A stretch of 36,681 nucleotides of DNA, taken from a virus. The notes beneath the pieces are model-generated. The model searched no databases. It was not told the origin of the DNA and saw only the letters and a list, made by a program, of their open reading frames with translations. The stretch lies in the IMG/VR virus record IMGVR_UViG_3300048837_000865, positions 1 through 36,681 of that record. One strand, given 5' to 3'. Made by a program: the position numbers and the translations under genes. Below, piece by piece: positions 4,777-13,061 of the stretch (position 1 is the first letter of the stretch; each line of letters begins with the position of its first letter).

Positions 4777-6741
4777 CTATTCTTCAACAATATTAGCGTT
4801 ATATCCACCGACTGTACCAGCAAATCCAGGTTCATAGCCAGGAAAAGGTACCATCATCATCGACCATAACTTGACCGGAATCTTTAAACCAGTGGGATCA
4901 TACCCAATGTCGCGGATCATGGCCGGTACTTCGTCGAAGATGGATGATCCTATCTTAACATCAATTGATATAAATTCCCCAATGTCGCGAAGTAATGACC
5001 TCCACGTGAGGTTGAGCTCAATGATTTCAAGCGTGGCGCTTGCCAGCTTTAAAATCTCAACTAGTTGCAGCTCAACGTCTTCGGCTTTGTACAGGTTGGG
5101 AAACTCAATCTTTTTTGAAATTGCCTTACCCATCTGGGTAATTGAATCGGGGTTGTTGTAGATTTTTGTTTGCAGGCCGTTTTCGTTGGTAACTGGCGAA
5201 AAGGCGTAAAAGCCTTGGGCGCGATTGAAGTTGTTGCGCTCGTCGATGGTTGTTTTAAAGCTGTCCTTTTCGACGTCCCAGTTCTTTACGACGAAAGTTG
5301 GCGCGTCGTTGAAGTCGTCAAAGTGCAGGCTATTTATTTTTATCTTCAGGTCACGGTCAATGAAAGCTTCAAGACGAATTTGCTCAAGCATTTGCAGGGC
5401 ATACGTCATGGCTTGTTTGGCGTCCTGCACCCAAACCCTGCCAAGGATGTTGGCAACGGCGCTTTCAGCCGGCGAACTTTTGTCGCGGTACGTTGTCCAG
5501 TTGGCGTGGAAGTCTCCCGAAACAACCCCACCGTAAGTCATCAGGATGTCCCGGGCAATCCAAACCATGTTACCAGTGTAAGCGCCTAGGTCCTTACCAA
5601 CCACGCGCACGTAGAATTGGTCGGAAGCGTCAAAAAGGTAAGCAATATTACCAGCGTCCGTACTTACCCACAGGGTGCCGGTGTTTTGCTGGATTTCAAA
5701 AGTTTTGTTGCCAGCGCCGATGTTGGTGATTTGGCTGGACGGCACCTGCATGTAAACGTCACCGCGTTTCAGGTAGACGTTACCTTGGTCGAACGACTGA
5801 AGGTCGTTTTCGGATATGCGTAACTTAACGTTCAGTCTTGAACCAGCTGGATCTGGCATGTACTTGTGATCGCCTGTCCCAGCCGTCGTAATGTTTATCT
5901 CGGCACCGCCCATCGTTGCCGAAACCTTGAAGTCGTCGCCGTTGGCGTTGATTACGTAGTAGTTGACGCCCGTGTTGAGCGGCGCAGGCAGCGTGCCTGT
6001 GGTGGTGAACTGCACGATGTCGTTGTCGTCTAGGTCATGGTTCGTGGCCAGAATCTGGTTCGTGCCAACGTCAACATCCAGGTCTTTTTCTTTAAAGTGC
6101 ACGTATGGGTCGTTGCCGTTTGTCACCCAAGCCGGTACTGACGCGGGGTTTGGTTCATTGTCGACGGTCCAGTCGCCGTAAATAACTGGCATCAGCTTAC
6201 CAATGTTTTTGACCTCTATTTTTGGATAGGCTGCTTCGGTGAACGCGGTGCTTGGGAAATTAACATTGATCCTATCGTAGTTGTCTCTTGCGATGATCGT
6301 AATGCTCTTAGTAGATCGCTTAAATCCTCCGACGTCAGTGATTCGGCCTCGGAAGACAGTCGTATAGGTCGAGGCCACCTCTGCCAATCCAAGACGAACA
6401 GTGACTGACTTTCCAATCCATCCGCCAAAATCGGATCCCGAAGGCAGGTAATTATTAAATCGGCCATCCACGTTTGAGAGTTCAAGCGTAAGAGTCGAAA
6501 ATTGTAAATCCGGCGACAGCCATTCTCCAACGGTTCGACCAATAACAGGGAAGTTGAGCAACGCCTCATAAAAGGTGCCTCCGACGTATTTGTTTCTGTC
6601 CGAAGCGTAGATTGTGCCGTCTGGAGACTCAATATCGACAACCATTTCCAGGCGGTTTTCCAGGTTGTCGTGACAGTAGTCCAACAAAGTTTGGGTGAGT
6701 GTCATGGAGGTTAGGTAGGAGCGGCGGTCCTTGCTACTCAT
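4777..6741 (-). CDS. Large tail-tip (minor tail) protein
   Basis: The protein has 654 residues. The N-terminal 200 residues (LEMVVDIESPDGTIYASD, WLSPDLQFSTLTLELSNVDGR, VFRGRITDVGGF) follow the pattern of siphophage distal-tail/hub-like proteins that build the tail tip. Residues about 230-290 carry an inserted small beta module (NHDLDDNDIVQF, TGVNYYVI, TTAGTGDH) that occurs widely in phage structural proteins. The middle and C-terminal parts (VVGKDLG, RDIGYDPTG) would form the rest of the hub. It overlaps its upstream neighbour by 8 bases. The exact tail-tip position is inferred from gene order after the tape measure. Confidence 0.8.
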   Translation of the reverse strand: MSSKDRRSYLTSMTLTQTLLDYCHDNLENRLEMVVDIESPDGTIYASDRNKYVGGTFYEALLNFPVIGRTVGEWLSPDLQFSTLTLELSNVDGRFNNYLPSGSDFGGWIGKSVTVRLGLAEVASTYTTVFRGRITDVGGFKRSTKSITIIARDNYDRINVNFPSTAFTEAAYPKIEVKNIGKLMPVIYGDWTVDNEPNPASVPAWVTNGNDPYVHFKEKDLDVDVGTNQILATNHDLDDNDIVQFTTTGTLPAPLNTGVNYYVINANGDDFKVSATMGGAEINITTAGTGDHKYMPDPAGSRLNVKLRISENDLQSFDQGNVYLKRGDVYMQVPSSQITNIGAGNKTFEIQQNTGTLWVSTDAGNIAYLFDASDQFYVRVVGKDLGAYTGNMVWIARDILMTYGGVVSGDFHANWTTYRDKSSPAESAVANILGRVWVQDAKQAMTYALQMLEQIRLEAFIDRDLKIKINSLHFDDFNDAPTFVVKNWDVEKDSFKTTIDERNNFNRAQGFYAFSPVTNENGLQTKIYNNPDSITQMGKAISKKIEFPNLYKAEDVELQLVEILKLASATLEIIELNLTWRSLLRDIGEFISIDVKIGSSIFDEVPAMIRDIGYDPTGLKIPVKLWSMMMVPFPGYEPGFAGTVGGYNANIVEE

Positions 6742-6952
6742 GCTCCACCTCGTGGTGATGCTGTATCTGTGGTTGATTTGGCTTTTGTTTTTTGCTCGTA
6801 AGGTGAAACAGGCCGCAACCAGGACAACGGTAAACGTACAAGTCGTGCCCGCGTATTTGCTTTTCGCGAAAAGCCGCCATTTGTGCGTCGCTCGACGTTA
6901 GGAACGTCACTTTGTTTTTTCCGTGTAGTTGGCATCGGTACTTGAATCTCAT
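6734..6952 (-). CDS. Small zinc-site protein
   Basis: The protein has 72 residues and resembles a compact zinc-finger-like unit. It has an N-terminal RCQLHGK, then after about 35 residues YRCPGCGLFHLTSK; the CxxC plus His arrangement could bind zinc. The C-terminus is rich in Gln and His. The start overlaps the upstream stop by four bases (ATGA) and the end overlaps the tail-tip gene by eight bases, so it is translationally coupled inside the tail operon. The function is unknown; a folding or assembly aid for the tail tip is a guess. Confidence 0.7.
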   Translation of the reverse strand: MRFKYRCQLHGKNKVTFLTSSDAQMAAFREKQIRGHDLYVYRCPGCGLFHLTSKKQKPNQPQIQHHHEVEHE

Positions 6953-7140
6953 TCGTCCTTCGTTGGTTTGTCTCCAAAAGCCTGAGCGATAAGCTTCTTG
7001 TCCTTTTTTATGATTGGTCTAGGTTGCCACCAAGTGTCCTGTGTTGAACACCTGGCAAGTGATTCTCCGCGTTTCATTCTCGCAATCAAGTCTTCGTTTT
7101 CTTTTTTACGCCGCTCGGCGTCTATGTTTCGTACCGTCAT
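6949..7140 (-). CDS. Small basic hypothetical protein
   Basis: The protein has 63 residues and is highly charged (many Lys, Arg, Glu). It begins MTVRNIDAERRKKENED and contains DTWWQPRPIIKKDKK. ATGA overlaps join it to both neighbours, which is good evidence that it is a real coupled gene. There is no membrane segment or recognised domain. Position between the repeat protein and the tail-tip protein suggests a tail assembly accessory. Confidence 0.65.
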   Translation of the reverse strand: MTVRNIDAERRKKENEDLIARMKRGESLARCSTQDTWWQPRPIIKKDKKLIAQAFGDKPTKDE

Positions 7141-8681
7141 AAGCTTTCGTCAACCTCAAGCGTGAAGTCAACGTTGTCGGCAGAAGTTCCCGAACCCCTA
7201 TTGACGTGTTTCTCGGCTGGTATTTGCGTGAGCTTGCCAAACACCGTGAAGCGTTCCATTTGTTGCGGGTCAGGTATCCACAGGCACTTGAGTGACGTGC
7301 GGGCGAATTCAAACAGCTCGCGTAGGTTTTTGAAGTTACCGCGATTGTACTGCATGTTGCGGAAGTCAATTGAAACACTGTTCTTGATGGCGCGGTCGTT
7401 GCTGACGTTGGTAAAGCCTTCGGTCGCCACCTTGTCGGAGAAGTGTTTTGTGAGCTTGGTAACTTCGTCAACAAAAGCCTCGCCTTGGAGGATGACCGTG
7501 GTGCCAAACACGATTGTTCCAATTTGTAAAAATCCTGACGGGTTTGTCGGGTCGTTGATGACCAATCGCCAGTACCGGAACTGTTGAGTTGGGAACGTTG
7601 GCGCGATGTAATACATGTTTGTTTCAGTCGGCGAAAGGTTAACGCTGAATTCCACAGGGCTGAATCCAGAATCGTTTGACGCTTCAAGCACAACGCTGGC
7701 CGAAGTCGTGAGGTTGTGGTTAAGCGCGGCAAAGGTGTCAACAGGAACGCCTTGCACAACCTCTGTGTCGCAAGAAACAATCGCCGAGGTAGTGCCATTT
7801 TCCGAGCGCCAAACCTGTTCGACAATGTCTGTGTTGAGGTTGTTGACGTCAAAGTCGCCTGTCTCCGTGGAGGTGGCTGTCCAGTTTGTGCCACTTGTGC
7901 CACGGCTTGGGAATTCAGCCAGGACGCGCAACCGCGTGGTGTTGTAAAGCACAACCCTGATTTGCATGCCGAAGAAGAACGAACGCAACAAGGCCACCTG
8001 CATGCCGACTGATTTCGTGAAATCAGCAATGATTCGTTCGACTTGCATTGCCAAGCGTTTTTGCGCGTTTACGAACCTGTCAATCTGCATGCCGATTTCG
8101 TGCGGTTCATCGTTGATGTGCCGCTCAATTTGCATTGGCCCCGCCACGCAGTAACCGGCGGTAAGGTACGGTGTTTCAAGGTAGCTTTGCGACAAGTAAC
8201 CCATGTCCGCACAAAGCGTGTGCGGGAAGGTTTTGTCGCGACGAATTTCCATAGCAAAGTCACCGTTCGAGAAAACGATACGGTTTATCTGCATGCCATT
8301 GTTTTGCATAAAATCTGAAATTATACGGTTTGTTTGCATACCGTGTTCTTGCGCGGCTGTAACTACGAGGTCGGTTTGCATCCCATTTTCCGATTCGTAA
8401 TCAACAACTTGGCGGTCAATCTGCATGCCGTTTTCGTCATTTATTGAGGTGATGCGGTGCACCTGCATAGCTAGGACTTCTTCGGTAGTAATTACGCGCT
8501 GCACCTGCATGGCTTGTTCGTCAACAAAGTTGGCGATTTGCCGTTCAACCTGCATGCCGATTTCGTGTTCCGCTGCGATGACGCGCTCGACCTGCATTCC
8601 TGTGGATTCGTAGCCCTCGTCGCCGAGGTACTGGTTTTCCAAATAATCGTCATTCAGGTAGCCACGAAACGACGTCGCCAT
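7137..8681 (-). CDS. Tail protein with GMQ-type tandem repeats
   Basis: The protein has 514 residues. It starts at ATG 8681 with AAGGAG seven bases upstream, directly after the tape measure stop. The N-terminal half has two parts, each led by a spaced YL motif (YLNDDYLENQYL at residue 8; YLSQSYLETPYL at residue 162). Each YL lead is followed by short repeats of the form [G/A]-M-Q-[V/I/T]-x-R-x-I-x(6-7); MQ (once ME) occurs at residues 29, 43, 58, 72, 86, 101, 115, 130, 144, 183, 198, 212, 227 and 239. Residues 250-514 form a beta-rich tail domain (FRYWRLVINDPTNPSGFLQIGTI; FEFARTSLKCLWIPDP). Its place right after the tape measure suggests a distal tail protein. The repeats may build a ring or tube lining. 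Confidence 0.8.
   Translation of the reverse strand: MATSFRGYLNDDYLENQYLGDEGYESTGMQVERVIAAEHEIGMQVERQIANFVDEQAMQVQRVITTEEVLAMQVHRITSINDENGMQIDRQVVDYESENGMQTDLVVTAAQEHGMQTNRIISDFMQNNGMQINRIVFSNGDFAMEIRRDKTFPHTLCADMGYLSQSYLETPYLTAGYCVAGPMQIERHINDEPHEIGMQIDRFVNAQKRLAMQVERIIADFTKSVGMQVALLRSFFFGMQIRVVLYNTTRLRVLAEFPSRGTSGTNWTATSTETGDFDVNNLNTDIVEQVWRSENGTTSAIVSCDTEVVQGVPVDTFAALNHNLTTSASVVLEASNDSGFSPVEFSVNLSPTETNMYYIAPTFPTQQFRYWRLVINDPTNPSGFLQIGTIVFGTTVILQGEAFVDEVTKLTKHFSDKVATEGFTNVSNDRAIKNSVSIDFRNMQYNRGNFKNLRELFEFARTSLKCLWIPDPQQMERFTVFGKLTQIPAEKHVNRGSGTSADNVDFTLEVDESL
7946..8600 (-). repeat. Fourteen imperfect 42-45 bp coding repeats (GMQ repeats)
   Basis: On the plus strand the hexamer family CTGCAT/TTGCAT recurs at about 42-45 base steps, each copy encoding a Met-Gln pair on the minus strand. 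Nine units form one block and five another, separated by the second YL-motif lead. The codons differ between units, so the repeats are diverged and kept mainly at protein level. Confidence 0.85.
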
Positions 8682-11600
8682 CTACTTGCTCCTTATGCCT
8701 GTCGTCGAGATTACGAAGTTTCCGTCAAGCGACATGCGACGGAATTCTTCTTTTACGCGAGGCATCAGTTTGTTGCGGAAGAAGTTTTCGTCAATCGGCT
8801 GTTCGGTTTCAATCTTAAAGTTCATGTTGAACACCTGCTCAACAGGGCGGTTTGACCCGCTGCCGTTGTTCATGGCGTTCAGGTTGGAAAGCCCAATGCG
8901 GTTGACCGCGTTTTGATTCATGACGTATTCGCCAGGCAACAACCTAGCTGGTATTTCGCCAATGCCTTGAACCAACCCACCGTCGTGAAAATTGAGCGGC
9001 GTGTTTTTGCCAAGCGACCGACTGGCCACCTTCATGCCTTCGGCTTTTGCGCGTTTCCAAAGTTCGCGTGGGTCAAGCTGACGCAAGGCCGCAAGCGGAT
9101 CTTTTGCAGTTTTAACGGCAAGGTCAATGGCGTCCTCGCCAAGTTTCATGGTTTGTTTCCACCAGTGGTCGGCCAATTCCTGAACCTGAAGAATATCGTT
9201 CCAACTTATGTCGACATCGATATCGCTAATCATCTCTCCGATGTTAGCTGACGAAATGGTTTTGCCTTGTTTGTCCAACCATTTGCCGATTCCCTCGAAC
9301 TGTTCTGGATTTAAAAACCCAGCAAGTTGTCCGGCGATTGGTCCTAGCGAGCTTTTCGCAAAACCTTTCATGCCTTCCCAAGCGTCGGAGAACGCCCCGC
9401 CGATGGCCGTGTCCCAACCTTCAAACGGGTTGCTCCAGCCGCCGCCGTCGTCAAACGGGTTCAAGTCGCCACCTTTACCAAAGGCAAAACGCGGAACGTC
9501 CATCTTTCCGGATTGAATGTCGTCGATGATTTTTCTGATCCACGGCTTTTGCATGTGCGTGCGTTTGATGACCGCTTCACCTGGCGATAACATGGCCAAA
9601 AAGCGGTCGTTCATTTCCGAGTCGCCGGGAACTGCCGCCGTACCAGGGACGACACCACCTCGCGCAAACCCAACAAATGGAACGTCAATGCCCAACACCT
9701 TTTCCACCGCGCCACGACCACCGCTGTCGAACTTGAACATTTTAGAAAGTAAATTTGTAACGCTTTTTGCAAGGCCGCTGATTTGGTCTGAAAGCACGTT
9801 CTTAACGCTCTTCAGGCCAGACAACAAACCGCCCCAAATCTGATCGCCGATGCTGGCAAAAAACTTTCCACCGCCGCTTAGTCCAGCTTTGAAGGATTCC
9901 CATATCTTGCCGCCAACGTTTGCGATGCCGCTTGTGAAGTTGCTCAGGGCGTTCTTCAGCGAATCGACGGCTGTCTTAAGTGTGTTGACGATGCCGCCCA
10001 AGGCACTGGAGAAGTTGTCGAATATCGACTTAAAAAAGTTAGCAATGTTTTGGAGTTGTCCGGTGATCGCGCCAAAGGTGTTTTGCCAAAGTTGGCGAAC
10101 ACCGTCGAGGAAGCTGATTTTTCCAGAGAACATGTCGATCAACGTTTGGAAGGTGTTCCTAAAAAAGTTTATTACACCCTGGAACGTTCGCGTGATGAAT
10201 TCCCACGCGGCCTTCAACGAATTGATGACGCTGTTGAAGTAGTTCATGGCGGCGTCCCACGCGGCCTTGAATGTTTTTACGAGACCGTCCCAAACTGCCT
10301 TAAGCGTTTTCCAGATGACATCCCACGCCTTTTTTAGGAAGTCGATGAACGGTTTTAAAATTTTGTCCCATATCCACGACCATATCGCCTTAAGCCCCTT
10401 GATAAATTTGTCCCAAAGGTCCTTCAGCCATTTGAACAAGTCTTCGAGTTTGTCGGCGATGGCCTCGCCAACCTTTTCCGTACCTTCAATTTTTCCCATG
10501 TCGCCAAGGTCGGACACGTTAAACATTTGCGACGTGGCATTTGTAAACGCCTTACCCGCCGACTTGAAGGCATTGGTGATGGCCTTTTCGTCAAACTTCG
10601 GCATCTTGATACCGCTGAAAAGCCCTGTCAGCATGCCGATCAGGCGTTTACCGCCCTCGATAATGCCCTTGATGATGGCCTTTGGCAGTTCGATTACCAT
10701 CAGTTTGATCATGGCCATGGCAATCTTCGGAGCACCGCGAATCACCCCTTCCACCAAGGCGATGGCAATGCGCGGCGCATTTGTAATCACGCCAACAACC
10801 AAACGTTCAACAAGGTCGGGAAGCTTTTCAACAACCGCAACGATGATGTCCGGCAACTTGGCAATCAAACCTTCCAGGGCTTCTGGCAGCCGCTCAAACA
10901 AGCCAGTGATGAGTTCGTCCAGGATGGTCGGTATGGAGTTCAGCAAGTTTGGAATGAAATTCTCGACAAAGTTAATTACCGAGTCCATGACGTTGGCAAT
11001 GCCTTCGGCAATTTTATTTGGTAGGTCGGTCAGTGAGTTGAAAATATTTGCAATCTTTGAAAGCACTTGCGGCACGAAGTCGATGAGTTGTTGGACGAAG
11101 TCCAGCACACCGTTGACGGCCCCCATCACCGCGCCAACGCCACCCATCACACCTGACAAAGCCCCTGCCGCCGACCCAATGGACGACGCCGCACCGGCGG
11201 CCCCTTCGCCAAAGGCCGACTTGATGGCAGCCAGTTGGTCGGGCGACACGAGGTTCGGGTTGTTGTTTTGTTCAATTTGTTTACCGGCGCGTTGTTGGAT
11301 CAACTCTTTTTGGGCGTCAAGTCCTGCAGAAATTTCCGAATTGAGCTTGCCCTCCAAGGCCAGTTGCTTGCGTTTTATTTCCACGCGCTCGAGTTCGAGC
11401 TGCATGGTGTTGTAAATCTGCTCATTTTGGGTTTTACCCATGTTGTTGATATCGTTGAACAACGTCTTGTTCTTATCGACAATCTCATCCAGGGCTTTGC
11501 GCATTTCCTCAAGGTTTTGCACCGGTAGATTCGTCGAGTCGGCGAACCCTTTGCCAGCCGCCGCCGCGCCTTTGGCCCCGACCTCCACGTCCTTCATCAA

Positions 11601-13061
11601 ACCGGCCACCAACTTCACGCCTTCGCCGGCAAAGCCAAAGTCAATGCCAACTGACGCTTTTTTGATCGATTCAGTGGACTTGTCTATGGCCCCTTGCAGG
11701 TCGTTGGCGTTTCGGTAGCCGTCCTCCAGGGATTTGTTGAAACTTTCAACATTTACTATGTTCTTTCCAAAGGCGTCGTTTATTTTTTGACCAGCCATCC
11801 CGATTAGGCCAAGCATTTCGGTGATTACAAAGTTAACAGCTTGTAGGGCGGTCAAAAACGCGACTTTAAGGCTTTGGCCGACGATGGTACCCAGTTGGCC
11901 CAGTTTGTCGAAATTGCGTATCAGAATGTCCACGGCGGCTGCGACAGACAGTATTAAACCGGCGATGGCGGCAACCTTAAGCATTGGCACCATGGCGATG
12001 GTCGCAGCGACCCGTAACTTGGAGAACCAGGCGACCGTCTGGGCGATCATCCCACTAAGGCCGCCCATGGCAGCCACGGCCGAACTTAACCCACCGATGG
12101 CCTGAATGGCTTGGTAAATGGCAGCCGCTTTGAGCGCCCCTTGAAAGGCGATGAACGACGCGGTCAATAAAGCAACACCTTGGGCCACCTTCATCCAATC
12201 GACGGCGGCAAAGGCGGACCCTATTTGTTCCATTTTTGGGGTCAGGTCCTTGACCGTCTGCGTCAGGTCGCGCAGCACACCCTTAACGGCCGTAAACAGG
12301 GCTGGCAGGTTTACCGTTTCGGTAATGGCCTTGCCGATGGCCTTCTTGAAGTCGTCAAAGGCCAGGCTTGCACCAATCATGGTGCCTTCCAGGGTTTTGG
12401 CGTCCGACGTGGAAAAGTCCTTCAGGCGTTCGGCCAAAAACTCAATGCCTTTGCCAGCCTGTAGCTCGGCAATCGTAAATTTGTTCAGCTCCGGTATGGT
12501 CTTGGCAATGCGACCAGGCGTACCGGACAGTTGACCCATCAGCTCGCGGAAGGCCGAGTTAACGTCCTTGTCCGTGACGGAGGCCAGGTCAGCCGCCGAC
12601 TTGATAAGTTGTTTGGTCATCTTGTCGGAAAGCCCACCGGCCTTGGCCTGCGCCACGAGACTGAGGGTTACGTCGTCCGACACGTTGGCCACGTTTTGCA
12701 TTTCGTCGGCAAAGTCCGCAAAACTTTGCACGTGTTCTTCTGTGAATTGGCCCACCAACTTGAGCGACGTGGCCACCTTGTTAAGGGCGCGTTGCGCTTT
12801 GGCGTGTTCGTCCACGGCCGAACGAACTGGACTGGAAAGGGCCGACCACGCGGTTTGAGCAATGCCAAGTATGGCGTTCAACTTGACGGCGGCAAACCCA
12901 ATGCCGGTAATGGATTCTTCGGTTTTTTTGGAGGAGGCGTCCGTCGACTTCATGACCTTCATCATGTCGGCGAACTGTTTGTTTAGATTTTGAATGGAGG
13001 CGGATGCATTTTTGGTGTCGACGCTGATGTCCACCAAAAGGCTATCGGTTGTTACCGCCAT
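8682..13061 (-). CDS. Tape measure protein
   Basis: The protein has 1459 residues and is the largest gene of the window, directly after the frameshifted chaperone pair; its start lies inside the chaperone 3' end (20-base overlap). The N-terminal 250 residues are alpha-helical (LNKQFADMMKVMK; EEHVQSFADFADEMQ). Hydrophobic segments follow (ALLTASFIAFQGAL; VAAIAGLILSVAAAVDIL). The middle has Ile/Leu/Pro-rich helices (GLIAKLPDIIVAVVEKLP) and a Trp-rich run (IWSWIWDKILKPF, AWDVIWKTLKAVWDGL). The C-terminus has two GG-V-PG...LSPGE/LLPGE motifs. Using the usual 0.15 nm per residue, the tail would be about 220 nm. It also probably helps DNA cross the inner membrane. Confidence 0.95.
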   Translation of the reverse strand: MAVTTDSLLVDISVDTKNASASIQNLNKQFADMMKVMKSTDASSKKTEESITGIGFAAVKLNAILGIAQTAWSALSSPVRSAVDEHAKAQRALNKVATSLKLVGQFTEEHVQSFADFADEMQNVANVSDDVTLSLVAQAKAGGLSDKMTKQLIKSAADLASVTDKDVNSAFRELMGQLSGTPGRIAKTIPELNKFTIAELQAGKGIEFLAERLKDFSTSDAKTLEGTMIGASLAFDDFKKAIGKAITETVNLPALFTAVKGVLRDLTQTVKDLTPKMEQIGSAFAAVDWMKVAQGVALLTASFIAFQGALKAAAIYQAIQAIGGLSSAVAAMGGLSGMIAQTVAWFSKLRVAATIAMVPMLKVAAIAGLILSVAAAVDILIRNFDKLGQLGTIVGQSLKVAFLTALQAVNFVITEMLGLIGMAGQKINDAFGKNIVNVESFNKSLEDGYRNANDLQGAIDKSTESIKKASVGIDFGFAGEGVKLVAGLMKDVEVGAKGAAAAGKGFADSTNLPVQNLEEMRKALDEIVDKNKTLFNDINNMGKTQNEQIYNTMQLELERVEIKRKQLALEGKLNSEISAGLDAQKELIQQRAGKQIEQNNNPNLVSPDQLAAIKSAFGEGAAGAASSIGSAAGALSGVMGGVGAVMGAVNGVLDFVQQLIDFVPQVLSKIANIFNSLTDLPNKIAEGIANVMDSVINFVENFIPNLLNSIPTILDELITGLFERLPEALEGLIAKLPDIIVAVVEKLPDLVERLVVGVITNAPRIAIALVEGVIRGAPKIAMAMIKLMVIELPKAIIKGIIEGGKRLIGMLTGLFSGIKMPKFDEKAITNAFKSAGKAFTNATSQMFNVSDLGDMGKIEGTEKVGEAIADKLEDLFKWLKDLWDKFIKGLKAIWSWIWDKILKPFIDFLKKAWDVIWKTLKAVWDGLVKTFKAAWDAAMNYFNSVINSLKAAWEFITRTFQGVINFFRNTFQTLIDMFSGKISFLDGVRQLWQNTFGAITGQLQNIANFFKSIFDNFSSALGGIVNTLKTAVDSLKNALSNFTSGIANVGGKIWESFKAGLSGGGKFFASIGDQIWGGLLSGLKSVKNVLSDQISGLAKSVTNLLSKMFKFDSGGRGAVEKVLGIDVPFVGFARGGVVPGTAAVPGDSEMNDRFLAMLSPGEAVIKRTHMQKPWIRKIIDDIQSGKMDVPRFAFGKGGDLNPFDDGGGWSNPFEGWDTAIGGAFSDAWEGMKGFAKSSLGPIAGQLAGFLNPEQFEGIGKWLDKQGKTISSANIGEMISDIDVDISWNDILQVQELADHWWKQTMKLGEDAIDLAVKTAKDPLAALRQLDPRELWKRAKAEGMKVASRSLGKNTPLNFHDGGLVQGIGEIPARLLPGEYVMNQNAVNRIGLSNLNAMNNGSGSNRPVEQVFNMNFKIETEQPIDENFFRNKLMPRVKEEFRRMSLDGNFVISTTGIRSK

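Follow-up and report, generated by a model that had tools for sequence, protein, structure and literature searches.

Repeat numbers in steps of three in the N-terminal arm of a predicted phage tail-tip protein

Locus and domains of the repeat protein

The DNA analysed here (the window) is a 36,681-base virus record of IMG/VR; its features around the gene under study are listed in Table 1. The gene for a protein with an N-terminal repeat arm adjoins the tape measure gene and so occupies the usual place of the gene for the distal tail protein (Dit). A comparable arrangement was found in related contigs: in 69 of the 71 loci with a long upstream frame, that frame stops 11 bases or fewer from the repeat gene, the identity of the frame as a tape measure having been checked for the window. 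Gene position supports the assignment of the repeat protein as a tail protein of a siphovirus-like phage, and in role it may be a Dit or Dit-like protein.

The small gene with a CPGC motif sits between the repeat gene and the gene for a 654-aa protein; in phage JBD30, likewise, two small genes (gp51 and gp52) lie immediately 5' of the hub gene. The 654-aa protein is possibly the hub. Its homologues in two related contigs, L001 and L003, are 57% and 55% identical and are encoded 3' of the repeat gene, the L003 homologue being shorter, at 568 aa. A single segment of the 654-aa protein, at about residues 205–350, has matches among baseplate proteins of Synechococcus phage and tail proteins of Rhizobium/Sinorhizobium phage.

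Table 1 Features at the repeat-protein locus of the window. Residue numbers are those of the 514-aa protein.
Feature	Positions	Strand	Basis or remark
Tail length tape measure protein (1459 aa), its gene adjoining the repeat-protein gene on the upstream side	8682..13061	-	phrog_1272, E 2.3e-36
514-aa tail-tip protein gene: repeat arm at the N terminus, then jelly roll, then C-terminal domain	7137..8681	-	open frame, phrog_8610 match
First YL motif GYLNDDYLENQYL, residues 7-19	8625..8663	-	sequence; same position in almost every full-length relative
Repeat block 1: nine repeats, residues 28-157, last copy AMEIRRDKTFPHTLC	8211..8600	-	motif spacing; AF2 strands at low confidence
Cys157 and Cys178 flanking the second YL motif	8148..8213	-	57 junctions examined
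Second YL motif GYLSQSYLETPYL, residues 161-173	8163..8201	-	sequence
Repeat block 2: five repeats, residues 182-247, final spacing 12, leading into invariant Tyr-Asn	7941..8138	-	motif spacing
F5/8 type C (CBM32-like) jelly roll, predicted, residues 253-398	7488..7925	-	AF2 pLDDT ~90 or more over most
C-terminal domain, residues 400-514: two long strands, helix, short strands	7140..7484	-	AF2 pLDDT mostly 85-95, lower at ~400-430
63-aa small gene, downstream, overlapping the repeat-protein gene	6949..7140	-	open frame
72-aa small gene with CPGC motif, downstream of the repeat-protein gene	6734..6952	-	open frame
654-aa tail-tip protein, downstream	4777..6741	-	in L001 and L003, homologues also follow the repeat gene

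The profile of PHROG 8610, a group of unknown function, matched residues 268–487 of the window protein (E 3.7e-17; positions 16–248 of the 270 in the profile) and also matched all 34 relatives scanned. Two AF2 runs modelled residues 250–514 mostly at high confidence. The first domain of this half was modelled with the fold of the F5/8 type C/CBM32 group, a jelly roll of about 130–140 residues, and in the structure search many CBM32 chains matched it (Z 14–16, rmsd 2.1–2.9); 4zxe_A matched with a VIA-align Z of 16.3 and an rmsd of 2.3 over 129 residues. SUN domains matched nearly as well (human SUN2, Z 15.4). The window protein had no Pfam match at E 1, and among 34 members no family of the F5/8C/CBM32 fold was matched at E 0.1. 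From the modelled fold, the jelly roll may bind sugar. For the C-terminal domain, no meaningful Pfam match was obtained, and its profile matched nothing among PDB sequences. No distal tail protein was listed in the structure searches, a result that does not speak against a Dit; the lists were filled by jelly-roll matches. We would class the protein with PHROG 8610, as a tail-tip protein that bears a new repeat arm.

The earlier note on this DNA had described 14 repeats of 14–15 residues, Met-Gln in type with one Met-Glu, in two blocks each headed by a YL motif, and motif counts and shuffles bore this description out. The pattern [GAP]-M-[QE]-[VIT] occurs 14 times within residues 28–247, with Met-Gln in 13 copies and Met-Glu in one (ME at residue 144); shuffles of the same residues gave a mean of 0.09 matches, with a maximum of 3 over 20,000 shuffles. 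Nine copies lie in block 1 and five in block 2, with spacings of 14, 15, 14, 14, 15, 14, 15 and 14 residues, a gap of 39, and then 15, 14, 15 and 12, and each block is headed by a YL-x3-YL-x3-YL motif. The coordinates proposed earlier, 7946–8600, fit the repeats; the first leader falls outside them. At the DNA level, pairs of repeats with a gap-free alignment are about 60–75% identical over 35–60 nt, which marks the array as an old one here, and Tandem Repeats Finder reported no tandem array in the window.

Relatives of the protein and the number of their repeats

Relatives were gathered by seven scans of IMG/VR viral contigs. Identical copies, a few near-identical copies and L105, a fragment lacking the arm, were left out before counting, and 76 members entered the counts and the tree of the C-terminal domain. 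All members share a common plan: a YL motif with its repeats comes first, in most cases a second such motif with further repeats follows, and then come the invariant Tyr-Asn and the domain. Eleven complete proteins have a single YL motif (L068, L075, L086, L088, L094, L095, L097, L098, L099, L143 and L146). In L083 the single YL motif is preceded by one repeat, and the protein was scored 1/2. Four rows are cut at the 5' end (L001, L038, L079 and L087). In L003 the first YL leader is replaced by FGETDFGEEPF.

Total repeat number ranged from 2 to 24 across the 76 members. What is conserved in the relatives is the Gln/Glu and the spacing, which is 14 or 15 residues, rarely 16 or 17; the last step is 12 residues in 58 of 58 cases. 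The methionine, which the earlier note took to be invariant, is not conserved: in 666 automatically found copies its position holds M in 23%, S in 18%, T in 15% and F in 10%, with A and L also found, so that Met-Gln is a local variant. At the following position, Q accounts for 85% and E for 15% of these copies, a share that leans towards Q/E because the search model was seeded on Q/E.

The statement that no named repeat family of this kind was known held up, as the arm repeats had no match in Pfam, NCBIfam or PDB sequences, and Pfam searches with 34 members gave scattered single matches only, up to E 0.1, the best at 0.0061. Two scans of genome contigs found no relative. Against the phage set, tblastn searches with four family proteins returned nothing, and a search with L046 returned EBPR siphovirus 2 only. 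In 2474 open frames of at least 100 aa from the 76 records and from L051 and L107, no chain of three repeats was found outside frames with the family anchor. A literature search limited to open-access papers, and to terms other than motif text, turned up nothing on this repeat or on tail proteins whose number of repeats is quantised, which does not imply novelty in print.

To count repeats, block 2 was taken to comprise every repeat lying C-terminal to the last YL motif and ahead of the Tyr-Asn. Its count was 2 in 20 members, 5 in 43, 8 in 11, 11 in one and 12 in one, and is thus 2 modulo 3 in 75 of the 76. The sole clear exception is L068 (9983–11404), where one YL motif is followed by 12 repeats, possibly two blocks fused after loss of the second YL motif. 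The rule was set down from the first set of relatives before three further scans were made, and all 18 block 2 counts in the new contigs conformed to it: 8 in L110, L115, L117, L121, L126, L143 and L209, 5 in L116, L118, L144, L145, L147, L165, L178, L188 and L190, and 2 in L146 and L212. These are not 18 independent tests, since some of the contigs are near earlier rows or each other (L144 to L100; L188 and L190 to L072; L110 to L115). The script's chain supplied 15 of the counts. Those for L146, L147 and L212 were set by eye and are supported by YL-to-YN distances of 42 (from the first YL cluster), 87 and 40 residues.

The same classes were seen without segmentation. The raw distance from the last YL to Tyr-Asn was 40–42, 82–89, 124–135 or 169 residues in 66 of the 76 members; the ten outlying values (L058, L065, L068, L076, L080, L102, L104, L110, L146 and L209) arose because the simple pattern met a spurious YL or missed one, L068 being also a true exception. 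By parsimony on the tree of the C-terminal domain, at least 19 changes of state have occurred in block 2 and at least 36 in block 1. The block 1 count is also restricted, less tightly than that of block 2: in the 61 members that have two blocks and an intact start, it was 0 modulo 3 in 40 and 1 modulo 3 in 20. The lone 2 modulo 3 case, L116 with 8 repeats, is the one violation among the new contigs of the rule for block 1, which had likewise been stated in advance. Tree neighbours may differ by a single repeat in block 1, as in L056 (10) and L061 (9) or L005 (10) and L090 (9). A previously unrecognised three-repeat unit in the arm is well supported.

The junction between the blocks carries a further conserved feature. 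Among 57 junctions examined, both cysteines flanking the second YL motif were present in 46, neither in 7 and a single one in 4 (Fisher P 3e-6), so that 53 of the 57 have the pair together or not at all; elsewhere in the arms, only 11 Cys occur among 10,831 residues. The pair is likely to form a disulfide or a metal site. In the window His154 (8220–8222) stands just ahead of Cys157, and a histidine often precedes the first cysteine in the relatives.

Proposed architecture of the arm and competing explanations

Similarity among repeats within a module also follows a period of three. Repeats at lag 3 were more alike than those at lags 1, 2, 4 and 5, with an excess of 0.257 BLOSUM units (permutation sd 0.049) that was positive in 43 of 61 modules and was reached in none of 2000 permutations. 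The excess was 0.243 (again 0 of 2000 permutations) without L031 and L032, which carry a recent duplication. Summed column by column, z was +5.0 at lag 3 and -4.7 at lag 4, and the pattern of 14- and 15-residue spacings likewise recurred at lag 3 (8 of 5000 permutations). All of these tests take modules as independent, which those of related phages are not. Residue patterns by phase within triads showed weak differences only.

The arm itself was modelled mostly below pLDDT 50 in both AF2 runs, with its packing predicted without confidence. In the second run, which used a phase-consistent alignment, nine strands appeared at low confidence between residues 27 and 148, one per repeat of block 1.

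The explanation that best accounts for these observations, to which we give a probability of about 0.55, is a layered three-repeat arm on the tail-tip protein of a siphovirus-like phage, with a 3n+2 phase rule. Each repeat of 14–15 residues would form one beta strand and a corner loop, and three successive repeats form one structural layer, as counting and sequence similarity indirectly show. Such a layer would most simply be one turn of a three-sided beta solenoid; this shape is suggested by the count rule, the lag-3 similarity and geometry, and AF2 was not its source. The last two repeats, together with the first jelly-roll strand (YN-x-x-LRIL), would complete the final layer. If the second YL motif is to stay on one face with the domain, block 2 would therefore have to hold 3n+2 repeats. 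The YL motifs may act as caps or docking sites, the second being closed by the loop with the paired cysteines. Contrary to this explanation are the low pLDDT and unconfident packing of the arm in both AF2 runs, the break of the rule in L068, the two classes allowed in block 1, the differences of one repeat there between near neighbours on the tree, and the count of 8 in L116. The nearly equal match to SUN domains counts against sugar binding, and the gene order of JBD30, with a fibre gene next to the tape measure, against a Dit.

An alternative, which we regard as unlikely, is that every three repeats fold into a mini-domain, a small up-down-up sheet of three antiparallel strands, and that the arm is a chain of these with no continuous solenoid. 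A strand of about 8 residues with a loop of about 6 fits hairpins, and a three-stranded meander may suit the counting equally well, for which the evidence is identical. In a meander, however, the contacts are between successive repeats, and it was lag 3, not lag 1, that showed the excess of similarity. Less probable still is an arrangement in which the arms of three subunits intertwine as a trimeric beta prism like the needle of T4 gp5, with one strand per chain per layer. This would agree with the lack of a predicted fold for the single chain, trimers are common at tail tips, and short strand repeats do build intertwined prisms; but an extra repeat would there amount to a 120-degree turn, equivalent by symmetry, and a symmetric trimer is therefore not expected to count in threes.

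Length change by recombination, which had been proposed from the repeats of the window, was seen in two relatives. In L031, a 132-nt block of exactly three repeats is present twice with 99% identity, and block 1 has 13 repeats compared with 10 in its relative L037. In L117 (2091–2342), a 42-nt unit of a single repeat stands in tandem in four near-identical copies, a recent expansion; the gain is three repeats if the unit began as one copy, and the blocks, of 12 and 8 repeats, both have allowed counts. These cases bear on a third explanation, that the steps of three are mutational in origin: repeats i and i+3 are most alike, and unequal crossing-over would mostly shift blocks of three. The lag-3 similarity and the duplication in L031 speak for it. 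L117, however, multiplied a single repeat and nevertheless arrived at allowed counts, and an excess as modest as that in 43 of 61 modules looks too weak to produce 75 of 76. A DNA change in single steps with surviving arms at allowed counts favours selection on the protein over pure mutation bias, although two cases are few, and we consider the mutational explanation improbable. In the layered arm, whole layers would be gained or lost by recombination between repeats; one strand per repeat and three repeats per layer would mean that arm length shifts by whole layers.

A link between repeat number and tail length through the tape measure found no support. The long upstream frame served as a proxy, and its length was uncorrelated with the total number of repeats (Spearman 0.10, P 0.47, n=58) and with the counts of block 1 (rho -0.02) and block 2 (0.19); as far as this proxy reaches, a ruler for tail length was rejected. 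A flexible arm, acting as a spacer or as a series of weak binding sites without strict length, or an arm that measures out tube length or, as the earlier note proposed, ring size, would suit the low AF2 confidence and the spread of repeat numbers from 2 to 24. It is very improbable in view of the rigid spacing (14/15/12), the counts in threes and the lack of correlation with the upstream frame. The layered arm may serve at the tail tip as a length-adjustable spacer or dock, placing the sugar-binding-like domain or holding fibres.

The usual protein repeats come and go singly; here, 3n+2 has been held through at least 19 changes on the tree, one of them an exception. The count rule gives the unit size and the phase of the ends from sequence alone, where AlphaFold cannot fold the arm. 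An unannotated tail-tip family, occurring in dozens of uncultured phages, now has a name, and phages would have a simple route to adjust host contact, should the arm govern how far the sugar-binding-like domain reaches or how it docks. A bolder form of the layered arm is a new repeat fold, a large triangular beta solenoid with three strand repeats per turn, its length quantised by the phase of the YL motif and domain, and the reach of the tail tip retuned by turns; this we offer tentatively, as more doubtful than not.

Comparison with known systems

In the left-handed beta helix, hexapeptide repeats are arranged three per turn. The arm would resemble it, if the solenoid holds, in having three sequence repeats per turn; it differs in its period, which is 14–15 residues and not 6, and in its strands of about 8 residues. 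The intertwined trimeric beta prism of T4 gp5 is built from 8-residue repeats and is likewise a tail-tip structure with short strand repeats, but its symmetry demands no count rule in threes.

One named relative is gp71 of EBPR siphovirus 2, which matches PHROG 8610 (E 9e-35), as does the C-terminal half of the window protein, and lies directly after a 919-aa gene of tape measure size. At 264 aa, gp71 corresponds to the C-terminal half alone and is without the repeat arm. A tblastn search with gp71 found gp49 of Azospirillum phage Cd, whose N-terminal part is unrelated to the arm. In the same phage, gp48 (L107, 3409–5103), ahead of this PHROG 8610-like gene, begins TWGTSSWGTTPWG, an aromatic motif spaced five to six residues in the style of the YL leader.

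In JBD30, the gene of a fibre protein follows the tape measure, and two fibre genes precede that of the distal tail protein, according to the passages on these genes in PMC11445458. Searched with the family profile, JBD30 gp47, gp48, gp49 and gp50 gave nothing over chance, and gp49, the distal tail protein, had with the family only a 20-residue match at chance level (E 0.056, probability 1%). Unlike the window protein, gp49 has no repeats in its description in those passages of PMC11445458.

Also comparable are the 'evolved Dits', which carry carbohydrate-binding modules (PMC7291167). In the passages of PMC7291167 that describe them, they are without a repeat arm of this kind, and the window protein differs also in having its jelly roll ahead of the C-terminal domain. 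Set beside the same passages of PMC7291167, the window gene is Dit-like in following directly on the tape measure gene and in encoding a domain of carbohydrate-binding type.
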